From Thermoflexales bacterium (GTDB taxonomy: Bacteria; Chloroflexota; Anaerolineae; J036; Brachytrichaceae): a DNA stretch of 35,542 nt. Below, one piece after another: positions 13,994 to 21,979 of the stretch (its first letter is position 1; the number at the start of each line of letters is the position of its first letter). Under the pieces are notes generated by a model that saw nothing but the letters and a program-made list of their open reading frames with translations, did not search any database and had not been told where the DNA came from. The DNA is taken from the NCBI GenBank assembly GCA_019694215.1, contig JAIBCK010000030.1:1-35542 (forward strand), read 5' to 3'. The translations under genes and the position numbers were made by a program.

Positions 13994-16900
13994 ATGCCGG
14001 ACACGCCGCGTAGAAAGCCCAAGACCGCTTCCGAGCGGAGGAAGGAAGTTCCCAAAGGTTCCTTCTTTGCCGCGACCCGCTTCACAGACGAAGCCATCGC
14101 GCGCGTGCTCAGGAACCTGCGCGAAAGCCGGGCCGTCGAGCTCTCCGGCCCCGCAGGCTCTGGCAAGAGCCTGGTCCTCGGTGGCGTCGCAGCGCGGCTG
14201 CGCGCCCGGCGTGGCCACCGCGTGGCCGAGATCAACATGGGCGGCCCCCGCGCGCCGGAGGACGAAGCGGCGCTGTGGCGCGACGTTGCCGCGCAGCTCC
14301 TGCCCGGCCAGCCCGAGACCCACGCGGCGGGCGACGCTGCCGTTGGCGAGGTGCGCGCGCGCTTAATTGGGGCGCAGGGTGCGCTCACGCTCTTGATCGA
14401 TCAGAGCGAGCTGACCGACGGCGACTGGCTGATCGAAGCGCTCAGCCACGCCATCGACGCTTCGCCTCGCGTCTCGGTGGTGGTGGCCAGCGTCGAGGCC
14501 CTGGAGGATCGACCCATCCGACCGCTGCACCGCTTCATGCAGGCGCGCGGCTACGTTGAGCTCAGCGACGCGCGGCCCGAGGCGCTACGCTACTGGCGCT
14601 GGTATGCGTCGTCGCTGCCGAAGCGGCTACGGTCAGGCGCGTTGGAAGCACTTATCCGTTTGACGGATGGCGATCCGTATCAGACCCAGGCGCTGTCCGA
14701 GTTCTTGATTCGGCAGGGGCTCGGGCGTCCGCGCAGCGTCCGCAAGCTCGTCGACATGCTGGACGGCGTACGTGGCAATCCCAGCCGCGTCGTCCCGTTG
14801 CTGCGGCTCTTTGTCGAGGAAGTCGAGGCGACTCCCGCGGCCCTCGCGCTCGTCCTGCGCCTGCTCGACGGCGGGTCCGGGGCGAGTGTCCCGGCTGCGG
14901 ACGTCGACGCAATCGGAGTTCGGCATGCGCCCTCCTGGCGCGGCTTTCTTCGCCTGGAGGAAAGCGCGTGGGCGTTCAAGTCAGAGTTCGCCGAACAGGT
15001 CTTTGTGCAGGAGTTTCAGCGCCATCCCGAGCGCGCGTCCGCGGCGCTGCTGCGGCACGGCGACTACGAAGCCGCGGTCGCGCGGGTGAGTGAGCGTCGA
15101 CAGCGCTTCCGGGGTGGGCAGGACGCGTTGATCACGGCCATGACTGCCTGGGTGCATGCGGCATCCGCGCCGAGCGAGGCCTGGCAAAGCGCGGCCCGCG
15201 CAATGGCGCTGGTCTTTGGCGAGGGCACGCGCGTGCTGCGCTTCTCGTCATGGCGCGGCGGTCCCGGTGGAGAAGGCGCCTTCTTTGAGGTGCTCCCGGG
15301 GCGCCTTGAACAGCCGGTGGCGGATCACGTCGTAGCGCTGCTCCAGAAGCTCTTCGTGGACAAGGCAAATCAGTCGCATACCGGTGTCATGACCCACTTC
15401 GCGGGCGATCACGGGATCGCGCCGGGAACAACGGTATATGTTCATCTCGTGACGCGCGACCATCGCCCGTATGCCGCGGTATTGATCCCCACCGACGCGT
15501 ATCTCCCCAGGGGCATGGTTGACGGCAGCGCGGCGTATCACGATTACGTCAGGCACTGGGAGGATGCGCTGCACTCCGTCTTCGTGCGCGTGCGGGAGTT
15601 TGAAGAGCAGGTCATCGACCTCGACGAGCAGACTGCTGCGGTGCGCAATGCGCAGGCCCAGCTCTCGCGCGGCCGCGAGGGCGTCGAGCCCGCGCTGTGG
15701 TGGTTGCTGACGGGCGTTACGGGCGGCTTTGGGCTGGCCTTCAACCGGGCCGTGCTGCTTCGGCGCGCCGGCGGTCTGCGCCTGAAGGGACTGGCCGCCA
15801 TCGGCTACCACACGCAGGCGGAACAGGACGAAGCCTGGAAGGCGGCACCGCTGACCGTTGCTAAGACGGAGGGCGAGAAGATCCGGCTCGATGCAACGCC
15901 CCTGGGTCGCGAGGTCGGCGACTGTTTCATCGAGGACTGGCAGCAGGACCCCGTTCTCCGCGTCGCGCTGGCCTCGGCCAGCCCCACGCCGGTCCCGCTT
16001 TCGACGCTGCAGGCCTCCGCGCTGGGGCGTCTGTTTGCCATCGATGGGGAACGCACTGGCCTGGACAACCCGGCTGTCGTCGTCCCGCTCATGCTCGACG
16101 CGCGCCTGCTGGGCGTCCTGGTGGTGGACAAGCCCTTTGCCGACCATGCAGTGACCCAGGCTCAATTTGATGCGTTGGGCGGAATGGCTTTCCAGCTGGC
16201 GCTGACCCTGCGCACCGAGGATGAGCACCGCCGCCGCGACTTCTTCGACGCACTGAGCGCGATCGGCCACGCCGCGCACTCGTATCAGACCTGTGCCGAG
16301 GAAATCGCCAGCACCGTCATGGCGCACCTCAAGGACCTCGTCGCGCGCGTGGTGATCAGCACCTGGGAGAGCGGCCGGCGCACCAAATTCGATGACCGGA
16401 TGCAGTTCACCGACCGCGTGGCCCTCGGTCCGGGCGATCAGCACGCCCTGACGGGACCGCGCATCCGATACCTTGATCGCGCCGCGCCGGATGTCGGCCC
16501 CGTCCTTGGCGCGCAATTTGCCGCGGCGGGCGAGCTCGATATTCCGAACTACCCCGCCTGGGTGCGCGAGCATCAGACAGGTGATGCGCTATGCGACGCG
16601 CTCGATGCCGTCGCCGTCCTGAGCATCGCGTTCAAGCGCGGCAATGCCTCGACGGGCGTCATGGCGTTCATCAGCACGGCGCCGGCCGGATTCGATGATG
16701 AGGATCGCGCGTTGCTCAGGCGGGTGGCGAATCGAGCCGCCAATCTGCTGGCCATCGCGCGGCAGGACGAAAGCCTGCATCGCTCCCGCCTGCTGACCGG
16801 ATACCTGCAGGATGCCCTCGTCGCGCTGGTCAAGCCGACGTCGGAGGCCTCGCTCCACGAAACGCTGCTCGATCAAATGTGCAAACTTCTGTCGATCGAC

Positions 16901-18010
16901 ACCCTCGACACGACCAAGCAGGCACCACCGGCGAGCGCGGCACTGATCGAGCTCAACAATCTGCGGCCGGCGTCGGTGCTGACGCTCCAGGGGAGTGAGG
17001 CCGCGGCCGGGCTTGTCCGCCAATGTACGCGCGTGGTTCGTTATGCAATCGAACATGGTACGGCGGTTGTCGAGTATGCGGGTGAGGAACGGCTGGCCCG
17101 GCGGCTCTTCGGAAGCGCGGACTGTGACGCCCTCGTCAACGCGGGGATGCAGGCCTCGGTTTGGGCGGTGGTTGCTGGTCGGCTCCTGCTTGTGTTGAGC
17201 TGGCCCGAGCCGCGCCGCGTCACCAGCGCGGAGCGACGCGCGTTGACGTTGCTCAGCATGATCGCCGGTCAGACCACGGCCAGTATCAACGCCGAGCGCC
17301 AGCGCTTTCGCACCGACCTGGCCGACAGCCTCAAGATCGGCGACTACGAACTGATCGAGGCGGAGCAGACCCATCAGTGGAACCGGCGGTTGCGCATCAT
17401 TCGCACCAATACGGCGTGGGCGATCTCGGCGCTCAACAAAATTCCCGGAGAGCCGGAGGTGGCGGGCGCGCTCAGCCAGCTCGAACGTGTGACACAGGAG
17501 GCCGAGCAGGCCCAGCAGCGTCTGGCTTATGGCACCTTCAAGGCTGTGCAGGCGATCGACCTTTCGACCTGGCTGCCGGAGGTGGTCGCTGACTGGCGCA
17601 GCGTCAACGACGACTGCACCTGCCTGGGACCGGTTGTCGTCGGTTCCAACCCCATGCCCATCAAGACGCGGCCAGTCGTGCTGCGCTGGATTCTGAATGA
17701 GCTCCTGCACAACGCAAAGGAAGCCGAGGCCTACAACCCGATCGGTCGCATCAGCGTCGCTGCTTCGCTCGCCCGAAACGGGGATTCCGTCATCCACGTT
17801 GACAACACGACGCCGCTCCCGCCGGCCGTGCTGGCAGCCCTGCGTGAGCCGGAGCTGCTTGTCTCCCGGCGCGGGGAAGGGCGTGGCCGGGGCCTGTGGA
17901 TCGCGTCCCGCCAGATCCGCGTGCTGCTCTCGGGCGAATTCGTTCTGCCCGCTTCGGGCGAACGCCGAACGCGTTTCACCTTGCGCCTGCCCCCAACGAT
18001 CGAGGAGTAG
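13994..18010 (+). CDS. STAND-like ATPase / GAF / histidine-kinase-like sensor (system gene A)
   Basis: A 1338-aa soluble multidomain protein. Residues about 30-245 form a P-loop NTPase of the AAA_16/STAND type: Walker A GPAGSGKS (52-59), Walker B-like LTLLIDQSE (Asp136), and DGDPYQTQALSEFL matching the STAND GxP element. A winged-helix-like stretch follows (about 260-345). Residues about 395-1100 hold GAF-like domains, clearest at about 563-735 (GVTGGFGLAFNRAVLL ... LLGVLVVD) and 750-925, with less certain ones on either side. The C-terminus resembles a histidine kinase: a candidate phosphoacceptor His1127 (EQTHQWNRRL), N-box Glu1236-x3-Asn1240 (NELLHNAKEAE) and a Gly-rich lid (RRGEGRGRG, 1292-1300). 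The D-box is VDNTTP, not DxGxG. No membrane segment. It leads a four-gene operon whose second gene carries a receiver domain, its likely phosphorelay partner. Confidence 0.82.
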   Translation: MPDTPRRKPKTASERRKEVPKGSFFAATRFTDEAIARVLRNLRESRAVELSGPAGSGKSLVLGGVAARLRARRGHRVAEINMGGPRAPEDEAALWRDVAAQLLPGQPETHAAGDAAVGEVRARLIGAQGALTLLIDQSELTDGDWLIEALSHAIDASPRVSVVVASVEALEDRPIRPLHRFMQARGYVELSDARPEALRYWRWYASSLPKRLRSGALEALIRLTDGDPYQTQALSEFLIRQGLGRPRSVRKLVDMLDGVRGNPSRVVPLLRLFVEEVEATPAALALVLRLLDGGSGASVPAADVDAIGVRHAPSWRGFLRLEESAWAFKSEFAEQVFVQEFQRHPERASAALLRHGDYEAAVARVSERRQRFRGGQDALITAMTAWVHAASAPSEAWQSAARAMALVFGEGTRVLRFSSWRGGPGGEGAFFEVLPGRLEQPVADHVVALLQKLFVDKANQSHTGVMTHFAGDHGIAPGTTVYVHLVTRDHRPYAAVLIPTDAYLPRGMVDGSAAYHDYVRHWEDALHSVFVRVREFEEQVIDLDEQTAAVRNAQAQLSRGREGVEPALWWLLTGVTGGFGLAFNRAVLLRRAGGLRLKGLAAIGYHTQAEQDEAWKAAPLTVAKTEGEKIRLDATPLGREVGDCFIEDWQQDPVLRVALASASPTPVPLSTLQASALGRLFAIDGERTGLDNPAVVVPLMLDARLLGVLVVDKPFADHAVTQAQFDALGGMAFQLALTLRTEDEHRRRDFFDALSAIGHAAHSYQTCAEEIASTVMAHLKDLVARVVISTWESGRRTKFDDRMQFTDRVALGPGDQHALTGPRIRYLDRAAPDVGPVLGAQFAAAGELDIPNYPAWVREHQTGDALCDALDAVAVLSIAFKRGNASTGVMAFISTAPAGFDDEDRALLRRVANRAANLLAIARQDESLHRSRLLTGYLQDALVALVKPTSEASLHETLLDQMCKLLSIDTLDTTKQAPPASAALIELNNLRPASVLTLQGSEAAAGLVRQCTRVVRYAIEHGTAVVEYAGEERLARRLFGSADCDALVNAGMQASVWAVVAGRLLLVLSWPEPRRVTSAERRALTLLSMIAGQTTASINAERQRFRTDLADSLKIGDYELIEAEQTHQWNRRLRIIRTNTAWAISALNKIPGEPEVAGALSQLERVTQEAEQAQQRLAYGTFKAVQAIDLSTWLPEVVADWRSVNDDCTCLGPVVVGSNPMPIKTRPVVLRWILNELLHNAKEAEAYNPIGRISVAASLARNGDSVIHVDNTTPLPPAVLAALREPELLVSRRGEGRGRGLWIASRQIRVLLSGEFVLPASGERRTRFTLRLPPTIEE

Positions 18011-18040: not shown

Positions 18041-19708
18041 ATGCCAACCAGCCTGCGGCACATTCTGATTGCAGATAACGATGCCAATGATCGCCAGCTC
18101 ATCGCGAAGGCGCTTCCCAACGACTGTGTTGCCGTCGAAGTGGCCAATGTGACCGCGGGCTTGAAGGCGTTTCAATCGGTTGACCTTTACGCCGCCTTTG
18201 TCGACGTCTTCCTCGAAGATCGCGACCAGCGTGCGCTCGGGTTCGAACTTGGAAAGAGGCTTCTGCCCCGCATCCCCGTGATCTACATCAGCGACAAGAA
18301 AGATCGCACGCGCGAGGCAATTCAAAACGCACGGATGAGCGAATTGCGGCTGTTGGACAAGAATCAGGTGTTTGACGATCCCGGCCAGGTTGGCCGAGCC
18401 CTCAAGGAGCAGGCAGCGCAATACTACGCCGACATTCGCTTCGATTTTGTGGGCAACCAGATGAGCTGGAGCCACTGCGCGCGTCAGCTCGCCCCGGAAT
18501 TGTCTGGGACCGAGCGCGACTCGGCCGAGGCGGAGTTCGGTCATCTCCTTGCGCGTGCGATGCGCGGATGGGAGGACTCGAGTTCGCGCTTTGTCAGGGC
18601 CGTGCGGGTCGAGCTCGTACCTGTGGCAGGTTCGGGTGACCACTCCGTCGTGCTTCGAGCGCGGCCATACTCGGCCACCGATGAGGCGCAGGCGGATGTC
18701 ATCGTCAAGTTCACCCGGGAAAAGCATCTGCGTCTCGATGATACGGACCTGCGCGATGACCACACGATGTTCAACCGCTACAAGAATGTGATGGGTGGCT
18801 ACGGGCTGCGCGAGCGGCGGCACGCCCGGCGCTGCAATTTTCAGGTGCAGATCTACGCCATCCCGTATTTCGAGGAGCAACAGACCCAGACCTTTGCCGC
18901 CTTCTACCGCGCCTGTGAGGACCGGTCGGATGCACTTGACACACTTCGCCTGCTGACGAACTTCGTCTTTGAGGAAGCGCTGCGACCACTCAACAAACGT
19001 CGGCTGACGGGAGAGGCATCCAAAGTGCTCGCAGAGGACTACCGGCGGCGCATCGATGCCCCGAAGCGGCTGAAGGCGATTGGTGAGGCGCTGACGCGCG
19101 ACAGCCGCCCGTCACCGATCTTGATGGATGACACCACCCTGACGGTGCAGGTCGGAAAGCGCAAGATGGTGCTTCCCAATCCCACCCGTCCCGTCCTCGA
19201 CCAAAAGCAGTACCCCGGTTGTGCCGATCGCATCGACACCCAGCTCCGCCACGGAGATTTCCATACCGGCAATATCCTTGTCGATCGGGAGCGATGTACG
19301 TGCTGGTATCTCGACTTTGAGACCATGGGCGAGAAGCACTACCATCTCGCCGACCACGTCGAGTTCGAAGCCGACCTGATGTTCAACCTGATGGACGTCG
19401 GCGACGAATACAGCTTCATGGCCGCCTTCGTCGATGGTGCGACCACGGACGACCTCGCCCACGTCGAGGACAAGAGCGCGCTTTGCGGCTCGACTCAACA
19501 CAAGGCCGAGGCGCACAAGGCGTATGTCGCCATCGCTGCGCTGCGCGAGCACTCGGCCCGCCACCTCGGGGCGGGGCCGGTTCAACCCTACTATCACGCT
19601 CTGATGTATGAGGCCCTGCGCGTGGCCGGTCGCCGCTCCGTGCCGACGGATCGGCGCTGGCGGGCGCTGCTCGCCGCCGCCGTGATCTTCAGTAAACTGA
19701 GGGACTAG
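18041..19708 (+). CDS. Receiver domain fused to APH/choline-kinase-fold phosphotransferase (system gene B)
   Basis: A 555-aa fusion. Residues 1-128 are a response-regulator receiver: acidic pocket Asp12/Asp14 (IADNDANDR), phosphoacceptor Asp55 (AAFVDVF), switch Ser84 (IYISDKK) and invariant-type Lys107 (LLDKN). Residues about 185-470 have the protein-kinase-like fold of aminoglycoside phosphotransferases: ATP lysine candidate Lys223 (VIVKFTREK), catalytic loop HGDFHTGN (404-411, with Asp406 as base and Asn411 as metal ligand) and metal-binding Asp425 in WYLDFE. The key residues are intact, so an active kinase is expected. Its target (small molecule or protein) is unknown, and there is no DNA-binding output domain. 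GGAGG at 18028-18032 lies 8 nt before the ATG. It starts 30 nt after gene A and ends 4 nt before gene C. Phosphorylation by gene A probably gates the kinase. Confidence 0.82.
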   Translation: MPTSLRHILIADNDANDRQLIAKALPNDCVAVEVANVTAGLKAFQSVDLYAAFVDVFLEDRDQRALGFELGKRLLPRIPVIYISDKKDRTREAIQNARMSELRLLDKNQVFDDPGQVGRALKEQAAQYYADIRFDFVGNQMSWSHCARQLAPELSGTERDSAEAEFGHLLARAMRGWEDSSSRFVRAVRVELVPVAGSGDHSVVLRARPYSATDEAQADVIVKFTREKHLRLDDTDLRDDHTMFNRYKNVMGGYGLRERRHARRCNFQVQIYAIPYFEEQQTQTFAAFYRACEDRSDALDTLRLLTNFVFEEALRPLNKRRLTGEASKVLAEDYRRRIDAPKRLKAIGEALTRDSRPSPILMDDTTLTVQVGKRKMVLPNPTRPVLDQKQYPGCADRIDTQLRHGDFHTGNILVDRERCTCWYLDFETMGEKHYHLADHVEFEADLMFNLMDVGDEYSFMAAFVDGATTDDLAHVEDKSALCGSTQHKAEAHKAYVAIAALREHSARHLGAGPVQPYYHALMYEALRVAGRRSVPTDRRWRALLAAAVIFSKLRD

Positions 19709-19712
19709 ACGC

Positions 19713-21128
19713 ATGTCTGTCCTTGCCAAGAACAACCCGATCGAGTTTCGCAGCCGGCTGTGCGCGGCGATTCTGAACACGCTTGCGCGCGGCGACTCCT
19801 GCACCGTCATTGGTGTGGGGAGCTCCGGAAAGTCCAACGTCGCGGTGCACCTCGCGCGCGCCGATGTTCGCGCCCGCGCGCTCGGCGGAGTGGGAGTCAG
19901 CCTACTCGGGATCTACGTTGACTTTCAGGACTTCACCGGCACGACGCCGCCGGAGATCCTGCTGGCGCTGCTCGAGGGGCTGCGCAATGCCGCTTCGCGG
20001 GAGGACGCGTCGGCCGCCTTTGGCGCGCTGCGAGGCGATCTTTCCGCGCTGTGGGAGCGCGCAGCGGCACCCGACGCGTCGAACCGCGTGATGACGTATC
20101 TGGCAGATGCGCTTCGGCTGACCTTCTCGCGCGGCGGTATAGACAAGGCCTTCTTCATCCTCGACGACTTCGATCGCGTGATGCGGCCCGAGGTCGATGC
20201 GAGCGCGCTCAATGCGCTCCGCAAGGTGCGCGACACCTTCCGCGGTCAGCTCGCCTTCGCCGTCTTTGCGTGGCGCGAGTTGCAGTTCTCCCGAACGCGG
20301 ACTTCTGACTACAAGGACTTCTTCGAGCTCGTCAAGACCCCTGTGCACGTGGTCGGCCCCTACGAACACGATGACGCGCAGTTCATGATCGATCGGCTGA
20401 TTCGGCAGTCCGGTGGGGGCAGCGCCCCGACGCGGAGTTGGACGGCTGCCGAGCGCGGTCGGCTGATCGAGCTATCAGGTGGGCATGCCGGCCTGTTGCG
20501 GATGATCTACCTGATGGCTGAACGGAGCGCGGTGTCGCTCCTGGCGTCGGATGCGCCGGCCCGACTCGCACAACGCCCGGAAATAAAGACCGAGTGCCAG
20601 ACCCTGTGGGATAGCCTGGATGCGACGGAGTCGGCGGGGTTGCGCGGGTTGGTCAGTGGCGCATTGCCCGGCGATGCCACGGCGTCGCGGTTGCGCCAGA
20701 AGGGGCTGATCGGTGGGCTTGGGGCGGCGGTCCGCGTCACCTCGCCGGTGTTCGAGGCCTGGGTGGCGACGCGCCCGGGCGAACCCGCCGGCGCAACGAA
20801 GGCCACCGTGGCGCCGGGTGCGTCACGCTCGGCGCATGTCGCGCTTGATGACGCCCGCCTAACGGTCACGATCGATGGCCGCGAAGTCGTCATGCCGGAT
20901 CGCGTTTCCTATGCGCTGATTGACAAGGTCGTCAACGCGCGGGCGCAGCCGGTGCCGCTCCGGGAGCTGCTCGAGGTGATGTTGTCGCACGGTCCGAAGC
21001 TCAGCCGCTTCAAGGGCTCGCCGGAGGTGCGCCTGTCCTTGACGCTGACCGATCTGGAGCAGTTGATCAACCTTCCGAACCGAACATACCTGCGACGTCC
21101 AAGCGAAGATACGCTTGTCTTCGCATAG
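19713..21128 (+). CDS. STAND-like ATPase with C-terminal winged-helix-like domain (system gene C)
   Basis: A 471-aa soluble protein. Residues about 8-270 are an ORC/STAND-type P-loop ATPase: Walker A GVGSSGKS (34-41), Walker B AFFILDDFD (Asp151/Asp152) and LSGGHAGLLRMIYLM (254-268), the STAND-typical Gly-His/Pro element. No catalytic Glu directly follows the Walker B aspartates (DDFD). Residues about 372-471 begin VALDDARLTVTIDGREVVM and continue with LRELLEVM, which resembles the OmpR-type winged-helix (beta strands, then helices); a DNA- or protein-binding role is inferred, not shown. It lies 4 nt after gene B and 23 nt before gene D, in the same operon. It differs from the ATPase part of gene A and is not an obvious duplicate. 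It may be the switch or effector of the system. Confidence 0.78.
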   Translation: MSVLAKNNPIEFRSRLCAAILNTLARGDSCTVIGVGSSGKSNVAVHLARADVRARALGGVGVSLLGIYVDFQDFTGTTPPEILLALLEGLRNAASREDASAAFGALRGDLSALWERAAAPDASNRVMTYLADALRLTFSRGGIDKAFFILDDFDRVMRPEVDASALNALRKVRDTFRGQLAFAVFAWRELQFSRTRTSDYKDFFELVKTPVHVVGPYEHDDAQFMIDRLIRQSGGGSAPTRSWTAAERGRLIELSGGHAGLLRMIYLMAERSAVSLLASDAPARLAQRPEIKTECQTLWDSLDATESAGLRGLVSGALPGDATASRLRQKGLIGGLGAAVRVTSPVFEAWVATRPGEPAGATKATVAPGASRSAHVALDDARLTVTIDGREVVMPDRVSYALIDKVVNARAQPVPLRELLEVMLSHGPKLSRFKGSPEVRLSLTLTDLEQLINLPNRTYLRRPSEDTLVFA

Positions 21129-21151: not shown

Positions 21152-21979
21152 ATGTCGATTCCACAGGATGCCCCGTTCGAACACAAGCTGAAGGACCGCC
21201 TGTTCGCGTGGTTGGGTTGGCGCTGGGTGCCGGGCCGCGAGGCCGCCATCGTCATGCGGCATGGCAAGTTTCATCGCATCGTGTCCGGCCCGCAGGAAGT
21301 GTGGCTCTCGCCGAGCTCGGAGGCCATCGCGTTCTCGCTGAGCAAACTGCCCGAGACATCCGACTGCGTCCTTGAAGACATCAACACGTCTGACGGTCCG
21401 CGCGTGCGCATCGAGCTGTCGCTGCGCTATCTGTTCGAGCCGTGGACGGCGCCGCGGGACAAGCAGACCTTGTATGTCATGCAGCTCAAGACCGACAGTG
21501 CGCGCGCCGACCACGTCAAGGTGGTCGCGCAATGGGCGGCCCAGAAGGTCTTCGCCGGCATCTCCTCCATGCGCATCTGTGCGGGGTCGGCGCAAAGTGT
21601 TGAGTTCGAGCGGCAGCTCTTCAAGACCATCAACGAGCGCCTGAACGGGGTGACGATGAGCCTGGTGCCGGAATTCTGCGCCATCCAGAAGATCGTCTGT
21701 CCGGAGGCCATCACCGAGCGCTACGAGAAACTGGTCGAGCGCGCGCTTGCCATCAAGCAGGTTGAGGCGTTGGGCGCCGACAAGGTGGGGCAGGCCCTGC
21801 GCGCCGAGGCCGTCGAATCACTCGGCAAGATGACCAGTGGCAGCCCGTATGTCAGCGTCCATGACCTGACCGAAATGGGCGGTAGCCCGCCTGACGCCCT
21901 CCAGCCGCCCATCATCGAGCATCGGTCGTCAACCCGGCCGCCGGCCGAGGAGCCGCCCGAGAGCATGCTGGACGGCTGA
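21152..21979 (+). CDS. SPFH/band-7 domain protein (system gene D)
   Basis: A 275-aa protein with the order of strands and helices expected for an SPFH (stomatin/prohibitin/flotillin) domain: EAAIVMRHGKFHRIVSGPQEVWL (first strands), then DINTSDGPRVRIELSLRYLFEP (the usual T-x-D-G-x-x-v-x-v segment), a helical stretch, and FCAIQKIVCPEAITERYEKLVE (the usual x-v-x-I-x-x-P-x-x-I exit helix). The long helix after it (about 190-235) would support oligomerisation. I see no true transmembrane helix; the N-terminal LKDRLFAWLGWRWVP could be an amphipathic membrane-binding helix. The tail is Pro/Glu-rich and disordered-looking. GGAGG at 21142-21146 lies 5 nt before the ATG. As the last gene of the operon it may form the membrane-proximal scaffold on which the ATPases act. 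Confidence 0.7.
   Translation: MSIPQDAPFEHKLKDRLFAWLGWRWVPGREAAIVMRHGKFHRIVSGPQEVWLSPSSEAIAFSLSKLPETSDCVLEDINTSDGPRVRIELSLRYLFEPWTAPRDKQTLYVMQLKTDSARADHVKVVAQWAAQKVFAGISSMRICAGSAQSVEFERQLFKTINERLNGVTMSLVPEFCAIQKIVCPEAITERYEKLVERALAIKQVEALGADKVGQALRAEAVESLGKMTSGSPYVSVHDLTEMGGSPPDALQPPIIEHRSSTRPPAEEPPESMLDG

Follow-up and report, generated by a model that had tools for sequence, protein, structure and literature searches.

A receiver joined to an APH/choline-kinase-fold domain and paired with histidine kinases: a possible two-component family of Chloroflexota and plasmids

Among response regulators, those with enzyme outputs are a minority. The two-component system known from defense, Detocs, has a separate single-receiver gene. 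ATP is cleaved by its best-described effector, a nucleoside phosphorylase (PMC11249213). In PorX-type response regulators, the receiver controls a PglZ phosphodiesterase, an enzyme that likewise occurs in defense systems (PMC12839542). Receivers and aminoglycoside phosphotransferase (APH)-like kinases are among the parts of a different group, the vWA-MoxR-VMAP and iSTAND/TERNS ternary systems. Kaur et al. (2020) described active APH-like kinases and receivers as effectors, with no histidine kinase among the vWA-associated effectors (PMC7159879), and Kaur et al. (2021) suggested that receivers may act independently of histidine kinases (PMC8195603). TCAD9 appears by name in a single relevant paper, which associates the domain with vWA-MoxR-VMAP systems (PMC10910872).

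Here we analyze a 35,542-nucleotide stretch of DNA from a Thermoflexales bacterium of the Chloroflexota (contig JAIBCK010000030.1, assembly GCA_019694215.1; hereafter the window), in which a receiver is joined to a TCAD9-like domain. The gene belongs to a set of four that run in one direction with gaps of ~4–30 bases and encode, in order, an nSTAND-GAF-HATPase kinase, the receiver-TCAD9 protein, an AAA_16/STAND-like ATPase and an SPFH protein. Their features are given below; residue counts for the receiver-TCAD9 protein refer to 60 distinct homologues of this architecture, one of which lacks the C-terminal part.

13994..18010, + strand: partner histidine kinase, with an N-terminal nSTAND-type NTPase, GAF domains, a DHp-like helix and a C-terminal HATPase_c (Pfam nSTAND1, GAF and HATPase_c above their cut-offs)
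17372..17374, + strand: codon of the predicted phospho-donor His1127
17795-17812: G1 box of the histidine kinase, reading DNTTP instead of DxGxG
18041..19708, + strand: receiver–TCAD9-like response regulator, a receiver joined to an APH/choline-kinase-fold domain (Pfam, homologue alignments, AlphaFold2, Foldseek, VIA-align)
18041..18430, + strand: receiver domain, residues 1-130 (strands and helices of the model match receivers)
18203..18205, + strand: codon of the predicted phospho-acceptor Asp55 (D in 58/60 homologues)
18593..19705, + strand: APH/choline-kinase-fold domain, residues 185-555 (Foldseek/VIA-align matches to APH, methylthioribose kinase, LicA and maltokinase)
18707..18709, + strand: codon of the predicted catalytic/ATP-binding Lys223 (K in 56/60)
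19250..19273, + strand: catalytic loop HGDFHTGN, residues 404-411 (H404, D406 and N411 each in 55 of the 59 homologues with the region)
19313..19315, + strand: codon of the predicted metal-binding Asp425, in LDFE (D in 56/59)
19713..21128, + strand: STAND-type ATPase (AAA_16 match below cut-off; AlphaFold2 pLDDT 88; CED-4 and NLR ATPase matches)
~20838-21125, + strand: C-terminal part of the ATPase, residues 376-471, with a winged-helix topology in the model (tail not confirmed, the structure comparison being mainly over residues 2-360)
21152..21979, + strand: SPFH/Band 7 protein, last gene of the set (Pfam Band_7 26.6 bits, cut-off 23.6)

The set has much in common with the described systems. 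It is like Detocs in outline, with a sensor kinase and a receiver bearing an effector, and some receiver-TCAD9 relatives also have a separate single-receiver gene; however, the best-described Detocs effector is a nucleoside phosphorylase (PMC11249213), whereas here an APH-fold kinase is found with STAND- or SMC-type ATPases in the set. Membership of Detocs was rejected for the window, whose set contains neither a PNP domain nor a separate single-receiver gene. The PglZ output of PorX-type regulators has an enzyme fold unrelated to that of the APH-fold kinase. The vWA-MoxR-VMAP and iSTAND/TERNS systems likewise use STAND NTPases, APH-like kinases, receivers, TIR, caspase and Band 7 domains (PMC7159879, PMC8195603), but their receivers were reported without histidine kinases, whereas pairing with a histidine kinase is the rule for receiver-TCAD9 genes. 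A vWA-MoxR-VMAP ternary system was also ruled out, Pfam finding no vWA, MoxR or VMAP component in the four genes. The link to NTPase-linked conflict systems raised in a preliminary description of this DNA survives in part, in the divergent TCAD9 kinase and its STAND-type NTPase neighbors, but does not extend to these core components. No PADLOC model matches the window proteins. In a literature search that left out most subscription papers, and supplements that possibly define the TCADs, no description of histidine-kinase-coupled APH outputs was found; since many papers lay outside the search, this is weak evidence of novelty.

The receiver-TCAD9 reading frame is intact, encoding 555 residues from the ATG at 18041 to the last stop base at 19708. 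We consider it real; the single genome of the same genus that was examined carries a full-length orthologue with 50% identity in a matching gene order. Promoter and terminator scans remained at chance level. In Pfam, the protein scored 33.7 bits for TCAD9, 18.2 for APH and 14.5 for Response_reg, all below cut-off. Thus, the window copy does not reach the curated whole-protein cut-off of 40 bits for TCAD9 (PF19974), for which aligned homologues with the same architecture score 58–99 bits, nor that of 30.2 for Response_reg, which some homologues exceed. The C-terminal part of PF19974 matches residues 378-509 of the window protein, and orthologues pass the cut-off; the window copy differs by a shorter middle region, the fused receiver and the histidine-kinase partner. 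By sequence comparison, then, the kinase domain is a divergent TCAD9 relative. Other TCAD9 proteins, unlike the window protein, carry Clp-N-like, protein-kinase or membrane segments and have no histidine-kinase neighbor. A sequence search of PDB chains gave no match to the protein, and an NCBIfam search no useful one.

Structure prediction makes the fold clear. The AlphaFold2 model, built with 34 sequences, has a mean pLDDT of 80 and a pTM of 0.80, and its best PDB matches by Foldseek are methylthioribose kinase, APH(2'')-Ia and ethanolamine/choline kinases (E 1e-5 to 1e-3). By VIA-align, residues 4-132 superpose on a CheY-like receiver (Z 14.8, rmsd 2.5, 119 aligned) and residues 163-554 on the choline kinase LicA (Z 15.9, rmsd 3.6, 267 aligned), with Z of 12.6–16.5 to members of the APH/choline-kinase superfamily, as expected of a two-lobe kinase-like fold; maltokinase and APH enzymes are also among the matches. 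The TCAD9-like domain has in common with the APH/choline kinase/methylthioribose kinase superfamily the fold, the beta-3 Lys, the HGDxxxxN loop and the metal-binding Asp, at only ~9–15% identity, and the window protein differs from them by its fused receiver. The APH/choline-kinase-type output that the preliminary description had placed on the receiver, and the kinase-like fold on which it had made this depend, are thus both borne out computationally, and we regard the architecture as firm.

At the receiver, Lys107 is kept in 56 of the 60 homologues and Ser or Thr at position 84 in all, such that the receiver fold, the acidic pocket, the Asp, the Ser/Thr and the Lys are all accounted for (D12/N13, D55, S84, K107). 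The pocket had been described as Asp12, Asp14, Asp55, Ser84 and Lys107; the last three stand, but the acidic pair that aligns with other receivers is Asp12-Asn13, with Asp14 at the next position. Asn is the commonest residue at position 13 (37/60). The kinase motifs were placed correctly, and in an alignment of 34 sequences with ~20% identity, D55, K223, H404, G405, D406, N411 and D425 are invariant. Conservation of the catalytic loop in orthologues, without which the earlier proposal would have failed, holds as well. Among 199 genomes of the class, TCAD9 was matched in 57, a count inflated by weak matches to the short catalytic motif, and above the cut-off in 28. A scan of named genomes seeded with a 4-row alignment returned 51 loci, almost all from Chloroflexota; a scan of genome contigs seeded with the window protein alone found no relative.

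The pairing with histidine kinases is the main new result and comes from the gene neighborhood. After clustering at 60% identity, a histidine kinase lies upstream on the same strand, mostly less than 100 bases away, in 35 of 38 receiver-TCAD9 clusters and in none of the 25 clusters without a receiver (Fisher P=1.3e-14, which is a guide only, given that clusters are related by descent). The three exceptions are themselves altered at the receiver: L046 (D55N), L129 (D55A) and L104/L163 (K107Q), the last being a tandem TCAD9 protein truncated by the contig end. L046 and L129, the only two of the 60 homologues without the receiver Asp, form one clade in which K107 is lost too, so that receiver integrity and kinase adjacency were lost together there in a single event. 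The partner kinases keep their characteristic residues: in 57 distinct upstream kinases, the phospho-donor His is present in 55/55 with the region, the N-box Asn in 56/56, and the G2 glycines in 56/57 and 57/57. We consider the pairing firm. In the window, too, what a cognate kinase would require, a HATPase kinase with a conserved His next to the receiver-TCAD9 gene, is in place; it has a Walker A motif GPAGSGKS at residues 52-59 and 44% identity to its orthologue in genome G001. Alignment with the 57 partner kinases shows that His1127, the N-box and G2 are kept, but the two G1-box glycines are lost; in other pairs, such as that of the L044 locus, the G1 box is canonical. The G1 box is also degenerate in the histidine kinase of the congener, so the kinase may be altered in the window's genus. 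The gating by a phosphorelay proposed in the preliminary description is therefore strongly implied by the specific pairing, though no activity has been shown and the G1 glycines are gone in the window kinase.

In Chloroflexota relatives, the set opens with an S1-receiver-GAF-histidine kinase gene, followed by receiver-GAFn-histidine kinase and receiver-TCAD9; next comes an AAA_16 ATPase, which often, though not always, has an OmpR-type winged helix, and in some cases SPFH, a gene found also in Thermoflexales relatives. Of this set, the window retains a four-gene version. ATPase genes adjoin receiver-TCAD9 in 22 of 34 clusters and receiver-less TCAD9 in 9 of 24. The model of the window ATPase (residues 2-360) has Z of 16–18.5 to a P. 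abyssi Walker-type ATPase, CED-4 and plant NLR resistosomes; no winged helix was detected in it with a homologue-derived profile. Two genes of its relatives are missing from the window, the S1-receiver-kinase gene and the canonical ATPase-winged-helix gene, and the former was not found at E 1e-40 in the window's genome or the congener. Both may have been lost; for the ATPase-winged-helix gene, this possibility rests on the window ATPase being closest to the second ATPase of Thermoflexales loci (30–33% identity).

The first operon kinase of the relatives has an unusual input, S1 RNA-binding domains fused to the receiver-GAF-histidine kinase (L156:2722-4959; equivalents in L039, L041, L044, L045, L053 and L142), which suggests sensing of RNA or ribosomes; no description of S1 domains on histidine kinases was found in the literature search, most subscription papers not being covered. 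At one locus (L048:246-3698), the position of this first kinase gene is occupied by a GAF-SpoIIE phosphatase gene, with the GAF-histidine kinase and receiver-TCAD9 genes downstream. The single-receiver genes mentioned above lie within the operon (L125:7185-7649, L132:8362-8877, L133:4785-5246 and L135:16274-17052) and resemble the stand-alone Detocs receiver.

A compact form is carried by plasmids of unrelated bacteria. Receiver-TCAD9 genes were found on plasmids of Caballeronia, Leclercia, Phaeobacter, Rhodococcus, Shinella, Vibrio, Klebsiella, Pantoea, Rhizobium and Piscirickettsia, that is, in Proteobacteria and Actinobacteria. The order ATPase (~610–630 aa), histidine kinase, receiver-TCAD9 is present in 8/8 plasmid regions examined (L175, L176, L177, L178 and L180-L183) and on an Agrobacterium contig (L173:6677-10852). 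Judging from the two examined by profile, the ATPase of this form is of the SMC/ABC type and resembles PtuA, GajA, AriA and LmuB of known defense systems. The partner kinases keep His and N-box, and the receiver-TCAD9 proteins keep most catalytic residues, with K223R in Shinella in the alignment and differences at the Gly of HGD in Vibrio and Pantoea. Toxin-antitoxin genes, transposases or integrases lie near several cassettes. No near copy of the Leclercia cassette was found in 5,426 E. coli genomes, and a Chloroflexota receiver-TCAD9 query found no relative on plasmids. In the TCAD9 tree, receiver-less members separate the plasmid group from the Chloroflexota receiver clade, and either one old fusion followed by losses or two separate fusions could have produced the architecture.

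Taken with the fold, the conserved sites and the recurrence of the gene order on plasmids of other phyla, the pairing leads us to prefer the reading of a genuine two-component system with a phosphorylation-switched phosphotransferase output, to which we assign a probability of roughly 60%; catalytic activity, substrate, direction of control and the step to the ATPase are inferred. In such a system, the NTPase-GAF histidine kinase would sense an intracellular signal and autophosphorylate on His1127, from where the phosphate would move to Asp55 of the receiver. The phosphorylated receiver would control the fused APH-fold kinase, which, using ATP, Lys223, the HGDFHTGN loop and Asp425, might phosphorylate either the partner STAND ATPase or a small molecule. 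From there, the signal would go on to the STAND-type ATPase with its putative winged-helix tail or, in some relatives, straight to a caspase, TIR or CHAT-TIR domain fused to the protein. Such tails occur in L096/L139 (caspase), L128 (TIR) and L057 (CHAT-TIR), on separate branches that amount to three changes on the tree. Against the model stand the absence of biochemical data, the degenerate G1 box, the absence from the window of two of the relatives' genes, the lack of a PADLOC match, and the common descent of the clusters behind the P value, with Asp and histidine kinase lost only once.

The same observations have to be weighed for other explanations. The TCAD9 domain could be a pseudokinase or adaptor that phosphorylates nothing: it would bind ATP or a ligand and pass on the state of the receiver, either to the ATPase or to fused effectors. 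One clade (L056, L106-L108) has indeed lost all catalytic residues and is still retained with a histidine kinase and a C-terminally fused winged helix, and the effector domains are likewise attached C-terminally to TCAD9; yet Lys, HGD, Asn and Asp are kept in 55–56 of ~60 divergent homologues, and in the plasmid group too with few exceptions, and we find a general adaptor role improbable. The winged-helix fusion in the dead-kinase clade is also consistent with a normal output to a separate ATPase-winged-helix gene. Quite improbable, in our judgment, is a receiver that dimerizes or binds nucleotide as a phosphorylation-independent switch while the adjacent histidine kinase has another partner. 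This has been proposed for iSTAND2/TERNS3 receivers (PMC8195603), and Asn at position 13 in most homologues and the degenerate G1 box of the window kinase would suit it, but not the near-universal adjacency of an intact histidine kinase that is absent beside receiver-less TCAD9 genes, nor the near-invariance of D55 and K107.

What the set is for is a further matter. It might be an ordinary housekeeping regulator of transcription or metabolism without a link to defense, with the ATPase-winged-helix protein acting on metabolic genes as a transcription factor. Ordinary regulation typically involves GAF sensors and winged-helix partners and most homologues have no effector fusion, and so this remains a serious if unlikely explanation; it does not sit well with the caspase, TIR and CHAT-TIR fusions, the STAND NTPases, or the plasmid form with its defense-type ATPases and its toxin-antitoxin, integrase or transposase neighbors. 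Finally, an aminoglycoside-resistance enzyme with a merely incidental receiver would explain the fold similarity to APH enzymes, but hardly deserves credence: identity to any solved APH is only 9–15%, maltokinase, choline and methylthioribose kinases are equally close, and the protein is partnered by a STAND ATPase and an SPFH protein. Antibiotic resistance as the main function was rejected on these grounds.

Returning to the phosphorylation-switched phosphotransferase, we infer from the caspase, TIR and CHAT-TIR fusions in some relatives that the gene set probably serves a stress, defense or cell-death response. Defense in the narrower sense is plausible on the fusions, the ATPase types and the mobility, but we rate it at no better than even, and there are no data on phage protection. 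More tentatively still, we propose that receiver-TCAD9 represents an undescribed defensive two-component family, in which an NTPase-coupled kinase switches a phosphotransferase, with a large Chloroflexota form and a compact mobile plasmid form. A gene set conserved across a phylum, together with a compact plasmid relative in unrelated bacteria, suggests a largely unstudied and possibly anti-virus two-component system. If the pairing is functional, it would connect classical two-component signaling with the STAND/TIR/caspase conflict machinery, whose receivers have been reported in published surveys as free of histidine kinases. With the compact plasmid cassette, this can be put to the test in an ordinary E. 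coli laboratory strain.

TCAD9 genes without a receiver or in other arrangements were also encountered. The window's own genome has a second TCAD9 gene, on contig C91 (L050:7258-9408), which lacks a receiver, has a lipoprotein-like signal and a membrane segment, and has no adjacent histidine kinase. L110, L113 and L116-L119 belong to another TCAD9 subfamily, which carries a fused Clp N-terminal-like domain and again has no two-component neighbor. In one genome, three long tandem TCAD9 proteins (1192–1323 aa) are encoded near each other (L055:433-15985).
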